A stretch of DNA of 31,758 nt from a virus. The notes below the pieces were generated by a model that searched no databases, was not told the DNA's origin, and was given only the letters and a program-made list of their open reading frames with translations. Below are positions 12,281 through 24,641 of this stretch, in pieces. How positions within the stretch are numbered: the first letter of the stretch is position 1; each line of letters starts with the position of its first letter. A program made the position numbers and the translations under genes. Location: IMG/VR virus record IMGVR_UViG_3300042556_001197, positions 1 through 31,758 of that record; one strand, 5' to 3'.

Positions 12281-13338
12281 CCTCTGAAGTGGCGGACTCA
12301 CTCGCCAACGTCACCCAACTCGCGGCCGACGCGGAACTCGCGCGGCTGCGCTCTGAGGTGGCATCGCTGAAGGGCCGCTACAAGGCGGCACTGTCGCAGA
12401 TCGACAAGGAACGCGAGCGGGCGGATTCCATGCTTTCGCTCCAGGGCGTGAAGCCCGTGCGGCCAAAGGTCGCGTCGAAGAAGTCAGCCAAAAAACATGA
12501 CGCCACAATGGTGCTGATGCTCAGCGACGTGCACTGCGAAGAGCGAGTCGCGCCCGAGACGGTCAACGGCGAGAACGACTACTCGCTCGAAGTCTGCGAG
12601 CGGCGACTAGATGAACTGCTAAACCGTTTCTTCCTCATGCTCGATCACGAGCGACACCTGACCGACGTGCGGCGTGTTCTCGTCTGGCTGGGTGGCGATT
12701 TCATCACAGGCCACATCCACCCAGACTGCGCCGAGGTGGCGCAACTCTCACCGCAGAACGCCACGCTGTGGATCCAGGGCAGGCTTCGCGGAATCATCGA
12801 CGCGATAGCGGAAAGAGTCGATTCTGTAGTAGTGGCCACGAACGCAGGCAACCATGGGCGCAGCACGGAAAAGAATCGCATCGCCACGGAACTCGATCAC
12901 TCGTGGGAACAGTACATGTTCCAAGTGCTGCGGCGTGAGGAGAAGAATCCTAACGTCTCGTGGCAGATCGGAACGGGCCATCTCAACTACATCGACCTTG
13001 ACGGGTTCATCGTTCGCACCTGCCACGGTCACAACATCCGCTACGCCGGGGGCGTCTACGGTCTGGCACTGCCGGCCAGCAAGGCGATTGCCGCGTGGGA
13101 CGCTCACCGCCGGGCCGACCTGACAGTGTTCGGCCACTACCACACCTGGGGCTGGCTGCGTGGTGGGCGGTATGTGAGCAACGGCTCGGTGATTGGACAC
13201 TCGCCGTACGCTGTGGCCATCAAGGCAAGCCCGGAGCGGCCATGCCAGGGATGCGTGGTCATCGACCACGGCAGGAAGGAAGTCACGAAGGCGTACCCGC
13301 TGTTCTGCGACGGCGATCTACGAAAGGGGACACCATGA
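12262..13338 (+). CDS. calcineurin-like metallophosphoesterase
   Basis: The product has 358 residues. After an N-terminal coiled coil (residues 15-60) comes a complete metallophosphoesterase motif set: SDVHCE (D89, H91), GGDFITG (D146), NAGNHGR (N197, H198), CHGHN (H255) and FGHYHTW (H292, H294). All expected metal ligands are present, so the enzyme is probably active. It may act on nucleic acid 3' phosphates, nucleotides or phosphodiesters; the family does not fix the substrate. Similar genes occur in several phages near tail or replication modules. The start overlaps the previous gene by 19 bases, and the next start overlaps the stop (ATGA). Confidence 0.88.
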   Translation: MARKTLTSEVADSLANVTQLAADAELARLRSEVASLKGRYKAALSQIDKERERADSMLSLQGVKPVRPKVASKKSAKKHDATMVLMLSDVHCEERVAPETVNGENDYSLEVCERRLDELLNRFFLMLDHERHLTDVRRVLVWLGGDFITGHIHPDCAEVAQLSPQNATLWIQGRLRGIIDAIAERVDSVVVATNAGNHGRSTEKNRIATELDHSWEQYMFQVLRREEKNPNVSWQIGTGHLNYIDLDGFIVRTCHGHNIRYAGGVYGLALPASKAIAAWDAHRRADLTVFGHYHTWGWLRGGRYVSNGSVIGHSPYAVAIKASPERPCQGCVVIDHGRKEVTKAYPLFCDGDLRKGTP

Positions 13339-13859
13339 GCACGACACTTGAAGCGGCTAACGAGACACTCCGCAATGCGGTGCGCACCAGGCTGGACGCG
13401 ACGCCAGCAGATGATCCGAAGATGGTGGGCTATGTGTCGCCGGCTGTAACGGAACCTCTGCAAGAAGTTGCAGAAGCAGAGGAAAAGCAACACGTCAGCG
13501 AGACCTATGCCGAGTGGGACAGGCTGCGTGGCGACGGGCTGACGCAGACCGGCGTGCACCCAACAAGCCAGGCGTACTTCGATCTACTGGACCGCATGAA
13601 GGCTCTGCATAGTTCCAAGAGCCGCGACTACGGCAGCGAGCACGACCCGCTGGCCAACATTCGCAACGGTGCCGTGTTCGTCGGCATTGAGCCGTGGAAG
13701 GGCGCGATGGTTCGCCTGTCCGACAAGGTGACGCGGCTGGCCACGTTCAACCGCACTGGCACGCTCACGCACGAGGGAGTCGAGGACAACCTCATGGATC
13801 TGGCTTCGTATGCCCTGCTGGCTCTGCTGCTGTACCGGGAGGAGAACGGTGCCATCTGA
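13335..13859 (+). CDS. DUF1599 / nucleotide-modification-associated-like protein
   Basis: The product has 174 residues from the ATG at 13335, behind GGGGA. The C-terminal half carries the diagnostic pattern: HSSKSRDYGSEHDPLANI, then GAMVRLSDKVTRLATF and VEDNLMDLASYALLALLLYRE. This is like DUF1599 (often called Nmad1), an all-helical MazG-like domain found in phages and linked computationally to nucleotide or base modification. The N-terminal half is a charged, probably disordered extension. A role in nucleotide pool handling is plausible but unproven here. It overlaps the next gene by 11 bases. Confidence 0.72.
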   Translation: MSTTLEAANETLRNAVRTRLDATPADDPKMVGYVSPAVTEPLQEVAEAEEKQHVSETYAEWDRLRGDGLTQTGVHPTSQAYFDLLDRMKALHSSKSRDYGSEHDPLANIRNGAVFVGIEPWKGAMVRLSDKVTRLATFNRTGTLTHEGVEDNLMDLASYALLALLLYREENGAI

Positions 13860-14061
13860 GCCCCTCTCCGACGCCTACCTCCAGCAGTGCGAGTTCGACG
13901 CCCGCAAGTTCCAGGGCACTTGGGACCAGGGCACGAGCGGCACGCTCGCGGCGCACGTCATGCGTCTGCTTGCCGAGTTGTCGCGAGTGAAGGGCCGGCT
14001 GGCCGTGACGATTGCACAGCGGGATGAGCTGCCGTCGCTGTCGCAGATCCGTGGAGATTGA
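13849..14061 (+). CDS. small protein at end of late operon, unknown
   Basis: The product has 70 residues. The GTG at 13849 is chosen because GGGAGGAG lies just upstream; an upstream ATG at 13810 would give a Cys-rich extension inside the previous gene. The sequence SDAYLQQCEFDARKFQGTWDQGTSGTLAAHVMRLLAELSRVKGRLAV is mostly helical, resembling short phage coiled-coil proteins. No motif suggests a function. It is the last + strand gene before the convergent integrase, and the large hairpin begins at its stop codon. Confidence 0.6.
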   Translation: MPSEPLSDAYLQQCEFDARKFQGTWDQGTSGTLAAHVMRLLAELSRVKGRLAVTIAQRDELPSLSQIRGD

Positions 14062-14129
14062 GCCGGGCGGCGGGTCGAGGCGGCGTAGGGTCATCCTTTC
14101 CCCCGCGACGCCTCCCCGCTTGCCCGGCT
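14061..14129. terminator. long inverted repeat between convergent genes
   Basis: Three nested stem segments pair in register: AGCCGGGC (14061-14068) with GCCCGGCT (14122-14129); GCGGG (14070-14074) with CCCGC (14115-14119); and GAGGCGGCG (14077-14085) with CGACGCCTC (14106-14114), one mismatch. The apical loop is about 20 bases. It sits between the end of the rightward late operon and the 3' end of the leftward integrase, so a bidirectional terminator is the simplest reading. A role in the phage attachment site, which often lies beside the integrase, is possible. The rest of the gap to 14145 shows nothing else. Confidence 0.6.
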
Positions 14130-14145
14130 CGTCCTACCTACTTCA

Positions 14146-15087
14146 CTACCTAGTTTCCGTGTTGCTACCCAATTCAGCCGCTGGCCTGTCTCCTCCCTGC
14201 GGCGGCTCGTTCAGGTCGAGCGGCGGCAGGTAGTCCAGGGCCGACTGCTGGCCCGTGATCGAAACGTCGATGTAATGATCCTTTGTCGTTTTCGGATTGG
14301 AATGCGAAAGGTGGTCCGTGGCATCGCCGCCCCCTGCTTTCACGTATGAACCGCTCGCCTTGCGAATGGCGTGGAATCCCCTCGGTTTGACGCCGGCCCG
14401 CTGGCACAGCAGCCTGAGCGATTGGAATAGGCTGCTGGGCCGACGGTGCTCGAGCCACGGCCAGACGAGATCGGCATCCGCCCTGCGGTAGCGACGCAGC
14501 TGCTGGGCCAGGTCAGGGTGGATCGCACGCTGGATCGTCTCGATGCCACCCTTGCGGGTCTCGCCCAAGAACGTAATGCGGCAGGCGTCGAGCTCCACCT
14601 CCGACCACCGCAGCCGCAGGTGGCTGCCGATCCGCTCGCCCGTGTACCAAAGGGACTGAATCAGTGTCATCCATAGCCATGGGGCTGGCACGCCACCAAT
14701 TGAGCCGTGTGCCGTTCTGGCCGCTCTGACGAGTGCAGACACCTCGGCGACCGTGTAGCCCAGTGGGGGCCGCGTGGGAACCCGCAGGCGTGGCAAATCA
14801 GGGAACTCGGCAGCGATCCGCTTTCTCGCGGCGAAGTTCCACAAAGCGCTGATGTGGGCCTTGTCCTTCGCCACGCTGGCCGGCGAGCAGACCTTGCCGC
14901 GGTGCGGTGTGACGGCCCGCCATCGCAAGAACTTCGCAATCACCAGATCGTCAAAGTCGGTAGTTTCCGGCTCCCGCTGCAGAAAGTCTTTTAGCCGGTC
15001 GATGGAATGGCCGAAGAGCACCACGCTCCTGGCCGACAGGTTGTGCAACGGTGCGTACCGCTCGTGCAAAAGCTCCCGAATCTTCAT
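14146..15087 (-). CDS. int: tyrosine recombinase (phage integrase)
   Basis: The 313-residue product catalyses site-specific integration and excision. Residues 1-90 form a SAM-like DNA-binding domain; the catalytic domain follows. The full active-site set is visible: R152 (TGERIG), K179 (RKGG), H239 and R242 (HAIRK), H262 (HSNPKTTKDHY) and nucleophile Y272. The start at 15087 was chosen because GGGAGG lies seven bases upstream on the minus strand; a longer frame reaches 15159 without a ribosome site. It is the only gene on this strand and faces the late operon. It lacks an obvious IntI-specific insertion, so it looks like a normal phage integrase rather than an integron one. Confidence 0.93.
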   Translation of the reverse strand: MKIRELLHERYAPLHNLSARSVVLFGHSIDRLKDFLQREPETTDFDDLVIAKFLRWRAVTPHRGKVCSPASVAKDKAHISALWNFAARKRIAAEFPDLPRLRVPTRPPLGYTVAEVSALVRAARTAHGSIGGVPAPWLWMTLIQSLWYTGERIGSHLRLRWSEVELDACRITFLGETRKGGIETIQRAIHPDLAQQLRRYRRADADLVWPWLEHRRPSSLFQSLRLLCQRAGVKPRGFHAIRKASGSYVKAGGGDATDHLSHSNPKTTKDHYIDVSITGQQSALDYLPPLDLNEPPQGGDRPAAELGSNTETR

Positions 15088-15118
15088 CTGACTGCCTCCC
15101 GTTTGGTGTTGTAGCGGC

Positions 15119-15142
15119 AGTATACACAAGTTCAGTGTGTAC
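15119..15142 (-). promoter_or_regulatory. integrase -10 box within an imperfect palindrome
   Basis: On the minus strand TATACT (15119-15124) is a good -10 box lying about 30 bases upstream of the integrase start. No clear -35 was found 16-18 bases away. It overlaps an imperfect palindrome at 15120-15142: GTATACAC and GTGTGTAC arms (7 of 8 pairs) around a 7-base centre. This looks like an operator controlling integrase. The right-arm complement GTACACAC recurs at 15656-15663 in the opposite early promoter. Confidence 0.45.
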
Positions 15143-15268
15143 GACTTTCCTGCTCCCATGCCCTCCGCTACTACTTTTGTTCACTAGTTCGATTGTCGCG
15201 GTGTTGGGACTGCGATTCTCGGATTGGCGGAAGTGGGCGGATTCTGCTGGATGCGGCGGCAGGACAGT

Positions 15269-22452: not shown

Positions 22453-22676
22453 GTGATCTTGTGCCGCCGATGATGCCTGACGATCTGGATGCGCTCATCC
22501 AGGCGATGGAGCGAGTGCAGCAGTTAGAGGCGGAGGTCGCACGCCTGCGGCTCACCGAAGCGGAGCGGGAGGCGATTGCGTGGTTTGCGGCGTACGCCGA
22601 CACGCCCGGAGAGGAGCGGCACGCGGCCGTGCTGGAGAAACTGATTGCACGGTGTCGCGTGGATTTTGACCGATAA
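22449..22676 (+). CDS. small coiled-coil protein with LTEAEREA motif
   Basis: The product has 75 residues; its start overlaps the previous stop by ATGA. A coiled-coil segment (MERVQQLEAEVARLRL) is followed by LTEAEREAIAWFAAYADTPGEERHAAVLEKLIARC. The L(T)xxERE motif and the final LxxLxxR pattern recur in the small ORFs downstream. It is the last gene before the cassette-like region. No function is known. The gap to 22747 holds only a GAAAGGA ribosome site. Confidence 0.6.
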   Translation: MSDLVPPMMPDDLDALIQAMERVQQLEAEVARLRLTEAEREAIAWFAAYADTPGEERHAAVLEKLIARCRVDFDR

Positions 22677-22747: not shown

Positions 22748-22981
22748 ATGACACAGAACGAACTGGCCGAACGGCTGCGAGACATGAGCGACGCGCTCAA
22801 CATTTGCGGTGCCGATTACAGTGACGTTTTGCTGGACGCGGCGAGAGAACTGGACCGCAGGAGTTGGATTCCGCAGCCCACGCTCACCGACGAGGAGCGG
22901 CAGGTGATATTTCGCGCGATGTATCGGGTTGTTGGCGCAGATTCCGCAAAACTCTGGTCGCTGTTGGAGCGCACGAAGTGA
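22748..22981 (+). CDS. cassette-like small ORF 1 (LTDEERE protein)
   Basis: The product has 77 residues, starting behind GAAAGGA. The N-terminal half is helical and the C-terminal half is PQPTLTDEERQVIFRAMYRVVG followed by AKLWSLLERTK. A 20-base stretch encoding LTDEER (22881-22900) recurs exactly in two further ORFs downstream. The TGA stop forms the left end of repeated stem-loop E1. Related LTDEERE proteins are abundant in phages, but I know of no assigned function. Confidence 0.6.
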   Translation: MTQNELAERLRDMSDALNICGADYSDVLLDAARELDRRSWIPQPTLTDEERQVIFRAMYRVVGADSAKLWSLLERTK

Positions 22982-23026
22982 GAACGCCAGCGATCAGCGG
23001 CTCGTCCGCTGCATCGCTTGGTTCTC
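22980..23026 (+). repeat. attC-like stem-loop E1
   Basis: The 47-base element begins on the stop codon of ORF 1 with GAGAAC and ends with GTTCTC. Internal pairs are GCGAT with ATCGC and CAGCGG with CCGCTG, leaving an extra C on the right arm and a loop of five bases. The ends form a terminal box separated from the inner stem by an unpaired spacer. ORF 2 starts 17 bases downstream. Structure and alternatives are discussed under the findings. Confidence 0.8.
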
Positions 23027-23043
23027 AACGAATGGAGGCAATC

Positions 23044-23277
23044 ATGGATGGCAACGAGAAGGCGCGGTTCGATTCACAGCAGCAGGCATTGTTCCGACAG
23101 TGGATCACATCGCCATCGGCAGGTTACGTCCGCCAAAACCCTGACGGCACTCCATACCGCGAGCCGCAGCCCGCGCTCACCGACGAGGAGCGGGAGGCGT
23201 TGCGCGGGATGCTTCCGACGATCATGTACGAACCGCACAGGAAGGCGATTGAGTCGATACTGGCACGGCTTGGTTGA
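23044..23277 (+). CDS. cassette-like small ORF 2 (LTDEERE protein)
   Basis: The product has 77 residues, start chosen because GGAGG is seven bases upstream; an ATG 12 bases earlier overlaps that site. It has a polar N-terminus (NEKARFDSQQQALFRQWITSPSAGYVRQNPDGTPYREP), then QPALTDEEREALRGMLPTIMYEPHRKAIESILARLG. The C-terminal part is related to ORFs 1 and 4. Its TGA stop is the left end of element E2. Function unknown. Confidence 0.58.
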   Translation: MDGNEKARFDSQQQALFRQWITSPSAGYVRQNPDGTPYREPQPALTDEEREALRGMLPTIMYEPHRKAIESILARLG

Positions 23278-23363
23278 GAACGCCAGCGATCAGCGGCCCG
23301 CGACCGCTGACGAAACTACAACCAGACGGCGGCATCGCGGGTCCGCTGCATCGCGTGGTTCTC
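23276..23363 (+). repeat. attC-like stem-loop E2 with extended apical arm
   Basis: The ends and inner stems are the same as E1 (GAGAAC to GTTCTC), but the apical part is expanded to about 46 bases between the CAGCGG and CCGCTG arms. The expansion contributes CCCGCG (23297-23302) pairing with CGCGGG (23336-23341), so the stem is prolonged. The length variation is confined to the loop end, as in variable terminal structures of attC sites. Confidence 0.8.
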
Positions 23364-23383
23364 TGGGAATCAGAGAGGGAACA

Positions 23384-23506
23384 ATGAGCGAAACAGCGGT
23401 TATCGTCCTGGCTTTGGCGGTATTCGTCGTGATGATGGGCGCATTGTCTATCGGGTTCCCGCACAAGCCCAGCCATCGGCCTCGCTGGCATCGGCGACGC
23501 CGCTGA
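23384..23506 (+). CDS. cassette-like small ORF 3, membrane protein (40 aa)
   Basis: ATG 23384 lies behind GAGGGA. The product is a single transmembrane helix (AVIVLALAVFVVMMGALSIGF) followed by a basic tail, PHKPSHRPRWHRRRR, giving an N-out or N-in anchored micropeptide. It is the only ORF in the set without a repeat element directly behind it. No function is known; membrane-active micropeptides are common in phages. The 64-base gap downstream has an AAGGAG ribosome site. Confidence 0.5.
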   Translation: MSETAVIVLALAVFVVMMGALSIGFPHKPSHRPRWHRRRR

Positions 23507-23570
23507 ATTGCGCTCTTGAGCGAAAGTGGAGACGTAGAACGACAAGGATCAGGAGCGGCAAGGAGAAGAC

Positions 23571-23897
23571 ATGACCAAACCAAACGACACCAACGAGCCG
23601 TCTCTTGCATCCGCTGGTTCTCACGGGGAGCCAGTTGCGTGGGCTGTGATGCTTGCTGACGGCCAGCGAATCTACGATGTCTATGGCATCGAGGAAGAGG
23701 CCAAGGCGATTGACGAGGCTGTTACAGGGAATCACGGCGTCGTCCCGCTTTACCGCTCGCCGACGCTCACCGACGAGGAGCGGGAGGCGGTGGACAGGGT
23801 GAGGATCGCGTTCCGCGACATGGATCACAACGACATGACAATGCAGCAGATTGAAGATTACGAAGCGATCTGCGACCTACTGGAACGAACGAAGTGA
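23571..23897 (+). CDS. cassette-like small ORF 4 (LTDEERE protein)
   Basis: The product has 108 residues, behind AAGGAG. It starts TKPNDTNEPSLASAGSHGEPVAWAVMLADGQRIYDVYGIEEEAKAIDEAVTGNHGVVPLYRSP, a block often seen in phage small proteins (EPVAWAV...VVPLYRxP), then TLTDEEREAVDRVRIAFRDMD and a terminal AICDLLERTK. The last residues and DNA match ORF 1, including LLERTK and the stop codon fused to the element. Function unknown. Confidence 0.6.
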   Translation: MTKPNDTNEPSLASAGSHGEPVAWAVMLADGQRIYDVYGIEEEAKAIDEAVTGNHGVVPLYRSPTLTDEEREAVDRVRIAFRDMDHNDMTMQQIEDYEAICDLLERTK

Positions 23898-23942
23898 GAA
23901 CGCCAGCGATCAGCGGCTCGTCCGCTGCATCGCGTGGTTCTG
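23896..23942 (+). repeat. attC-like stem-loop E3
   Basis: This 47-base element is nearly identical to E1 (it differs mainly in TCGCGTGG versus TCGCTTGG and at the 3' edge). It begins on the stop of ORF 4. The identity with E1 extends into the last codons of the preceding ORF, suggesting that ORF end and element were copied together. Confidence 0.8.
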
Positions 23943-23968
23943 TGAGCGTAGAAAAACGAGGTGAAGTC

Positions 23969-24178
23969 ATGGACGATATTGTTGAGATCGCAAACTACCG
24001 AATCACAAGCGGCCAGGAATCCGACATATACGGCGACGTTGAACTTATGGGGCGTCTTGTCGCCGTGATCGCCAAGTTGCAGAAGCAGCGGCAGGAACTG
24101 GTAGACGCTCTCCGGCAGACCCGAGACACCTACGGCGGTGCTTTCGTCCCGGCGTTTGTTTCGCTGGAGTGCGAGTAG
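23969..24178 (+). CDS. cassette-like small ORF 5, unknown
   Basis: The product has 69 residues from ATG 23969, behind GAGGTG. It begins DDIVEIANYRITSGQESDIYGDVELMGRLVAVIAKLQKQRQELVDALRQTRDTYGG, partly coiled coil. It does not carry the LTDEERE motif, so the set is not one protein family. Element E4 follows its TAG stop after four bases. Function unknown. Confidence 0.55.
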   Translation: MDDIVEIANYRITSGQESDIYGDVELMGRLVAVIAKLQKQRQELVDALRQTRDTYGGAFVPAFVSLECE

Positions 24179-24182
24179 CCAC

Positions 24183-24229
24183 AGAACGCCAGCGATCTGC
24201 GGCGTTAGTCCGCAGCATCGCGTGGTTCT
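24183..24229 (+). repeat. attC-like stem-loop E4 with compensatory change
   Basis: The ends AGAAC and GTTCT and the GCGAT/ATCGC stem are preserved. The inner stem reads CTGCGG with CCGCAG, where E1-E3 have CAGCGG with CCGCTG. An A-T pair is swapped to T-A on opposite arms, which is direct covariation. The loop is seven bases (CGTTAGT) instead of five. Confidence 0.8.
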
Positions 24230-24260
24230 ATTTCGCGGAGTAGTTTAGGTGGTGCAGAAC

Positions 24261-24494
24261 ATGAGTAAGCGCACTCAAGGCCCACGTTCGAGTCGTGGCT
24301 CCGCGATTTCACAGAAGGACAGAGAGACGCTTCGCAGGCTGGATCGTGGCATTCACTGGATTGATGAACGCCTGGAGTTGTGGGTGGTGTTTTATGACGG
24401 CCGCGAGCGAAAGCGGCTCCAGAAGCGACGGGACTCAATGGACGAACGAAGGCGGCTACTGAGGCTGCGGATGAAGGGCGTCGGCAAGAAATAG
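24261..24494 (+). CDS. cassette-like small ORF 6, basic helical protein
   Basis: The product has 77 residues from ATG 24261, with AGGTGG upstream; a GTG at 24249 is an alternative. It is very basic: SKRTQGPRSSRGSAISQKDRETLRRLDRGIHWIDERLELWVVFYDGRERKRLQKRRDSMDERRRLLRLRMKG. It is probably helical and nucleic-acid-binding. A perfect hairpin follows at 24502 and ends the array. Function unknown. Confidence 0.55.
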   Translation: MSKRTQGPRSSRGSAISQKDRETLRRLDRGIHWIDERLELWVVFYDGRERKRLQKRRDSMDERRRLLRLRMKGVGKK

Positions 24495-24501
24495 AACAAG
24501 A

Positions 24502-24527
24502 ATTAGGCTGCCAGTTCGCAGCCTAAT
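24502..24527. terminator. perfect 10-bp hairpin ending the small-ORF array
   Basis: ATTAGGCTGC (24502-24511) and GCAGCCTAAT (24518-24527) pair perfectly around a 6-base loop, eight bases after ORF 6. There is no T-run on the + strand; on the minus strand the hairpin is followed by a T-richer stretch. It probably stops transcription in one or both directions. A second, 6-bp hairpin (ACGGCG/CGCCGT, 24580-24602) lies further along the gap to 24641. Confidence 0.5.
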
Positions 24528-24641
24528 ACGGCGACCAACCGAGTTTCGCGGCGGCTAGGCAGACACGCGACCGAGAAAGACGGCGACGCCGGATAACGCC
24601 GTGAAGGATGCCCGGCTTGACATGCTCGCGATAGTGCGGGC

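Follow-up and report, generated by a model that had tools for sequence, protein, structure and literature searches.

Small ORFs of a phage genome, set between hairpins that resemble integron recombination sites, raise the question of whether these hairpins are attC sites and, if so, which enzyme would move the genes that they accompany. The window, that is the whole stretch of 31,758 nucleotides that was analysed, is the IMG/VR virus record IMGVR_UViG_3300042556_001197, and it encodes a major head protein, a tape measure protein, an exonuclease, a replication initiator and a tyrosine recombinase. Another record, IMGVR_UViG_3300044858_002901 (31,427 bases; our loci L094 and L100), is identical to the window, when read in reverse, across the 18.7 kb that were compared; it probably represents the same virus or is a duplicate entry. 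Being the same sequence, L094 and L100 were rejected as a close relative of the window and excluded from later statistics. An earlier note on the locus had described four stem-loops, E1 to E4. All four are present and fold as claimed, with an AGAAC:GTTCT end box, an unpaired spacer (GCCA against GTG or TTG), a GCGAT:ATCGC stem, an inner CAGCGG:CCGCTG stem and a variable loop, but they are not the full set, and a fifth, degenerate element (Eb) has to be added. The features of the locus are the following.

22748-22981, + strand: ORF upstream of E1, the last gene outside the array, with its stop codon within the R box of E1.
22980-23025, + strand: E1, a short-loop attC; first cassette unit about 22985-23280, ORF 23044-23277.
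23276-23363, + strand: E2, a long-loop attC without a start codon (the host-like form); unit about 23281-23539, ORF 23384-23506.
23538-23619, + strand: Eb, the degenerate attC, with an RBS and an ATG (23571) in its loop; unit about 23540-23900.
23571-23897, + strand: ORF of 108 aa whose start lies within the Eb hairpin; it reads across the GTT end of this attC.
23896-23941, + strand: E3, a short-loop attC; unit about 23901-24186, ORF 23969-24178.
24182-24229, + strand: E4, a short-loop attC whose inner pair is a compensatory T-A; unit about 24187-24496, holding a tRNA-like gene and ORF 24249-24494.
24233-24307, + strand: tRNA-like gene of the last cassette, a weak call made by ARAGORN only, with an ambiguous anticodon and no Rfam tRNA match.
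24488-24550, + strand: right end of the array, GAAATAG-AAC and then a terminal site of form a (AAGAATTAGGCTGCCAGTTCGCAGCCTAAT), probably attI-like.
14146-15159, - strand: phage tyrosine recombinase, not an IntI (it has no TIGR02249 match and lacks the insertion of IntI proteins); probably the integrase of the phage itself.

Each of E1 to E4 has a single additional C in its right arm. The inner stem covaries, with A-T in E1-E3 and T-A in E4, and among 108 short-loop elements the same inner pair is A-T in 79, T-A in 24 and A-A in five. The inner-stem pattern occurs four times in the window against 0.22 expected, three of these four being elements of the E1-E4 set. The elements had been thought to end in GTTCT; the true end is GTT, and the next bases are specific to the cassette (CTC, CTG, ATG, ATC, CGC, AGC, GGT). 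The hallmarks of an attC hairpin are all there, namely paired R boxes AAC/GTT, an unpaired central spacer, an L-box stem with an extrahelical base, and a variable loop. As for the canonical core RYYYAAC...GTTRRRY, AAC...GTT is kept and most sites read GTTC rather than GTTR. The earlier note was right that the GTTRRRY core is missing, but this is no more than a relaxed consensus: GTT with five cassette-specific bases acts as the R box. With five elements and no IntI, the window fits the definition of a CALIN, which has two or more attC sites and lacks a neighbouring intI. An Rfam search of the whole window gave no relevant match and the hairpins fall in no curated structured-RNA family, in agreement with the view that they are not a known Rfam RNA; blastn of 22900-24310 against INPHARED phage records found no match. 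We also observed that unrelated cassette proteins have a C-terminal segment in common, PTLTDEEREA..., often ending in LLERTK or RLG, which is encoded in the window at 22544-22586, 22876-22918, 23169-23211 and 23759-23801 and in many cassettes of other phages too. A tRNA-like sequence carried as a cassette, recognized by eye, also lies just past the attC at about position 554 of locus L025 (reverse strand).

Matches to the core motif were found in at least 119 stretches of IMG/VR, and the motif is rare in cellular contigs (20 matches, mostly chance matches within genes). An architecture finder, which requires AAC, spacer, GATC box, inner stem, loop, GCAT box, spacer and GTT in this order, detected 393 elements in 198 viral loci and none in shuffled loci. 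Three further collection scans brought the set to 534 elements and 278 cassettes in 271 IMG/VR viral loci, these counts being lower bounds as the finder misses degenerate sites (L074, about 930-972; L204, about 14110-14193). A phylum-wide scan with the exact attC motif revealed an array in G001 only, the remaining matches being at control level; Rhodopirellula-like elements served as a lead only. The hairpins are members of this large integron attC family.

In integrons the crossover falls in the R' box, and the bases adjoining GTT are those of the neighbouring cassette. R-box complementarity therefore characterizes the pair of ends of a single cassette and not one linear attC. Taking one cassette per body cluster (n=142), we compared the bases after GTT of element i with those before AAC of element i+1. 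Matches at GTT+1 to +5 reached.87,.92,.82,.78 and.70, against expected values of.57,.74,.43,.29 and.36, and complementarity dropped to chance from GTT+6 onward. The mean run was 4.10 versus 1.45 in permuted pairs (sd.12, maximum 1.85 of 5000 permutations), and a single element's own two ends gave runs of 1.57 and 1.70, near chance. In the window, CTGTG after E3 pairs with CACAG before E4 and not with GTGAG before E3, and the sequence after E4, CTATTTC (GTTCTATTTC), pairs over 7 nt past GTT with the GAAATAG that precedes the terminal AAC (24495). This test is symmetric and blind to orientation. End complementarity is the mark of cassettes that once existed as integron circles and, together with the hairpin features, it bears out the attC-like architecture proposed for the elements.

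The partner of each attC was sought in bodies that occur in two contexts. The upstream attC sites were more alike than the downstream ones in all 15 comparisons (about nine independent families). Loci L064 and L069 have identical cassettes in a changed order; one of the shared units shows 100% identity over its attC, leader and body, starting at AAC, and a different attC follows it. The upstream attC sites of several shared bodies are similar, not identical (73-93%), and the pair L119/L152 displays the opposite pattern to this co-travel, and therefore homologous exchange within elements also happens. On the coding strand the extrahelical base sits in the right arm, and in IntI-attC complexes the extrahelical bases, T12'' and G20'', are on the double-prime side (PMC3053210). 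On the planctomycete contig L202, intI and the cassette ORFs are on the strand opposite to that of the phage setting of the attC family, in the usual ORF-attC order, and a conserved non-attC site closes the phage arrays on the right side. Because of the extrahelical base, the attC co-travel, the attI position and the planctomycete chromosomal integrons, we take the phage coding strand to be the attC bottom strand, which for the window is the + strand as written (E1). These four lines point to C-attC-ORF-stop-AA as the mobile unit, read on the coding strand, with the gene inverted relative to ordinary cassettes. The single-gene cassettes and their precise unit-wise shuffling, both predicted earlier, were borne out, the unit boundary being AA|C, or G|TT when read on the non-coding strand. 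The attC had also been expected at the cassette 3' end, as in cassettes of CALINs and integrons, but it is found 5' of the ORF with which it travels.

The closing site was detected in 26 phage loci, window included, in three forms: a (five loci, the window among them), b (14) and c (7). A profile built from the phage c sites only scored 21.3, against a shuffled maximum of 11.5, about 230 nt beyond the stop codon of intI in the planctomycete genome sequence L407 (within L419), and form c is identical to the L419 attI at 18-23 of 30 positions, with shuffles reaching at most 16-17. The attI candidates by intI in L202 and L203 line up with form c by eye, their profile scores not being clearly above shuffles (L203 is marginal, at 13.1 versus 12.5 shuffled), and L419 alone stands clearly above shuffles among the three chromosomal candidates. 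Forms a (the window's) and b have no visible match to chromosomal attI. Judged by its sequence, form c is attI-like; forms a and b are attI-like by position only.

Many attC sites also appear to provide the start of the gene. In 234 of 298 long-loop elements the loop contains an ATG whose ORF continues across GTT and spans at least 30 codons. The ATG-to-GTT length modulo 3 is distributed 200:33:1, and in nearly all frame-1 elements the length itself, from the ATG to the GTT end, is 40, 43, 49, 55 or 58; a second start-in-loop class (..PLHRVV) uses a different frame. An SD-like motif precedes the ATG in 210 of the 234, versus 28% in shuffles, and cassettes have their own SD and start in 103 of 120 cases after a short-loop attC versus 45 of 126 after a frame-1 start-in-loop attC. 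About three quarters of the long-loop attC sites have a Shine-Dalgarno sequence and a start codon in the hairpin loop, and the ORF starts inside its own attC. In the window, the Eb leader MTKPNDTNEPSLASAGS is fused in frame via GTT to HGEPVAW.... Fused bodies match the DNA methylase, N6/N4 methylase, HNH and Dam families, several of them from a few residues past the junction. Substitutions in the leaders by codon position (51:52:68) have a weak bias, and the leaders are therefore perhaps simple disordered tails; these counts weakly suggest protein-level constraint on the leaders, which would be translated as the N-terminus of the cassette protein. Several DNA methyltransferase bodies and one HNH nuclease body were also noted among the cassettes of L043, L045, L047, L107, L153 and L174, as in earlier phage CALINs.

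The array of the window has no intI beside it, as a complete integron would. IntI above the cut-off was found in none of 50 whole element-bearing records, and 43 IMG/VR loci with IntI-like genes, collected with a planctomycete IntI query, contained no elements of the window's attC family. The recombinase of the window was considered as an IntI and rejected, since it has neither a TIGR02249 match nor the IntI insertion. Of 343 planctomycete genomes, 55 encode IntI. L204, an intI-bearing Cyanobium contig, carries, at 13157-14193, three phage-type cassettes with inverted genes between two classical attC sites. They abut a host MazEF-like cassette at GCG|TTAGAGAG, and the junction recurs at a tandem duplicate of the MazEF-like cassette. 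These exact junctions indicate that a cellular integron enzyme very probably handled attC sites of the window's type, and they are indirectly in line with recombination by IntI via the folded bottom strand. The elements had been interpreted as a separate single-strand recombination or mobile-hairpin system. This view does not hold, as this attC family also occurs, together with intI, in the chromosomal integron of a planctomycete, and phage-type cassettes are precisely joined within the cyanobacterial one.

We consider it very likely that the locus is a phage-borne integron cassette platform without an integrase, in which IntI supplied by the host would move inverted attC-ORF units. Units made of one attC hairpin and then one small ORF follow each other in series up to the attI-like site from 24495. 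IntI, probably supplied in trans by the host (most likely a planctomycete), would bring the coding strand, that is the attC bottom strand, into its hairpin form and cut it at AA|C (G|TT on the opposite strand), and units could thereby be excised, reordered or captured as circles; such movement may be going on at present. With the genes inverted, each gene has the attC as its 5' end. A Shine-Dalgarno sequence and a start codon lie in the loop of many units, and the right arm encodes a short leader (e.g. MSDDNTQDAAEPSPASAGS) in frame via GTT into the body.

Another enzyme could be imagined, the phage's own tyrosine recombinase (the 14146-15159 family), repurposed for attC hairpins and acting instead of host IntI. 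We regard this as unlikely. A single PF00589 tyrosine recombinase is encoded in 36 of the 50 element-bearing records, and 14 of 15 sampled (L375-L389) form with that of the window one clearly homologous family, but a common integrase is expected anyway among related temperate phages. Moreover, this family is devoid of the IntI insertion, four of the largest element-bearing records (G013, G017, G030 and G033; 122-205 kb) have no PF00589 recombinase, and phage-type cassettes are precisely joined in the intI-bearing chromosomal integron. The cassettes could also be read in the classical orientation, each ORF followed by its own attC and cut at GTT on the coding strand. Elements that begin at stop codons would suit this reading and the symmetric complementarity test allows it, yet it is highly improbable given the upstream attC co-travel (15/15), the right-arm extrahelical base, the terminal site on the right, the intI and classical cassettes of L202 on the opposite strand, and the start codons in the attC upstream of the ORF.

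Two explanations dispense with a site-specific enzyme or make attC secondary. The promoter-stem-loop (PeSL) mobile regulatory cassettes of T4-type phages are reportedly stem-loops between small hypervariable early genes, which carry promoters and shuffle via homologous recombination. The hairpins of the window likewise are stem-loop modules among small hypervariable genes, whereas PeSL have no R-box complementarity, attI or circular cassettes. Linkers of this kind would account for conserved elements among small hypervariable ORFs at one genome position, for the exchanges that took place inside some elements and for different leaders upstream of the same body. However, they do not predict the 5-base complementarity past GTT between cassette ends about 300 nt apart, absent in an element's own ends, and they leave unexplained the terminal attI-like site and the junctions with chromosomal cassettes; this reading is strongly disfavoured, even less probable than the classical orientation. 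Least probable of all is that the hairpins are mainly RNA elements controlling translation or termination of a phage operon. The RBS and start codons in the loops, and the location of the elements after a stop and ahead of a start codon, as in an operon, speak for such a role, but there is no Rfam match, and the end complementarity, the unit reordering and the use in a chromosomal integron would have no explanation. RNA control may be an additional role rather than an alternative.

Integron arrays in phages are already known. Qi et al. (2023) reported 17 CALINs in 10,705 genomes, the typical ones in the usual orientation, with phage attC sites that were recombined by IntI1 when tested and an inactive Shewanella prophage CALIN that has an attI at its start (PMC9892861). 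The arrays described here resemble them as intI-less attC arrays in phages with MTase cassettes, but they occur in hundreds of contigs, their genes are inverted relative to attC, the R box is mostly GTTC rather than GTTR, the start codon lies in the hairpin, and an attI-like terminal site recurs. The sedentary chromosomal integron of planctomycetes has the same attC family and R-box rule (Planctomycetaceae MAG L202, six attC sites with intI) and, in L419, an attI of the phage terminal form c type beside intI. It differs in having intI, the classical gene orientation, longer loops without start codons, and toxin-antitoxin-like cargo where the phage arrays carry small phage proteins. In class 1 integrons, ORF-11 and ORF-18 place a start codon in the recombination site and an ORF across the crossover, which aids cassettes without translation signals (PMC8876359). 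Phage attC sites share both traits, but ORF-11/ORF-18 lie in attI and encode a short coupled peptide, whereas in the phage array the start is in attC and gives an N-terminal leader on the cassette protein. We found no description, in the open-access literature searched, of inverted cassettes whose start codon lies within the loop of the attC, nor of the abundance of this attC family. Phage CALINs are not new; what is new is a variant in which inverted cassettes that donate a start are set on an attI platform lacking an integrase.

On a wider scale, we lean towards the view that widespread integrase-less phage integrons, each an attI-like site with inverted cassettes, use host IntI in trans, that their attC hairpins double as translation-start modules, and that they have one cassette pool in common with host integrons, even across phyla. 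If so, each recombination event would relocate a gene and keep or swap its 5' leader, the attC being the 5' end of genes, and the platform would depend on a host enzyme. This would explain how small, fast-changing phage genes are shuffled as precise units and would link phage mosaicism to the host integron, with L204 as a candidate route for phage genes into chromosomal integrons. The virus thus appears to borrow the gene-shuffling machinery of its host and to reshuffle its small proteins with it.
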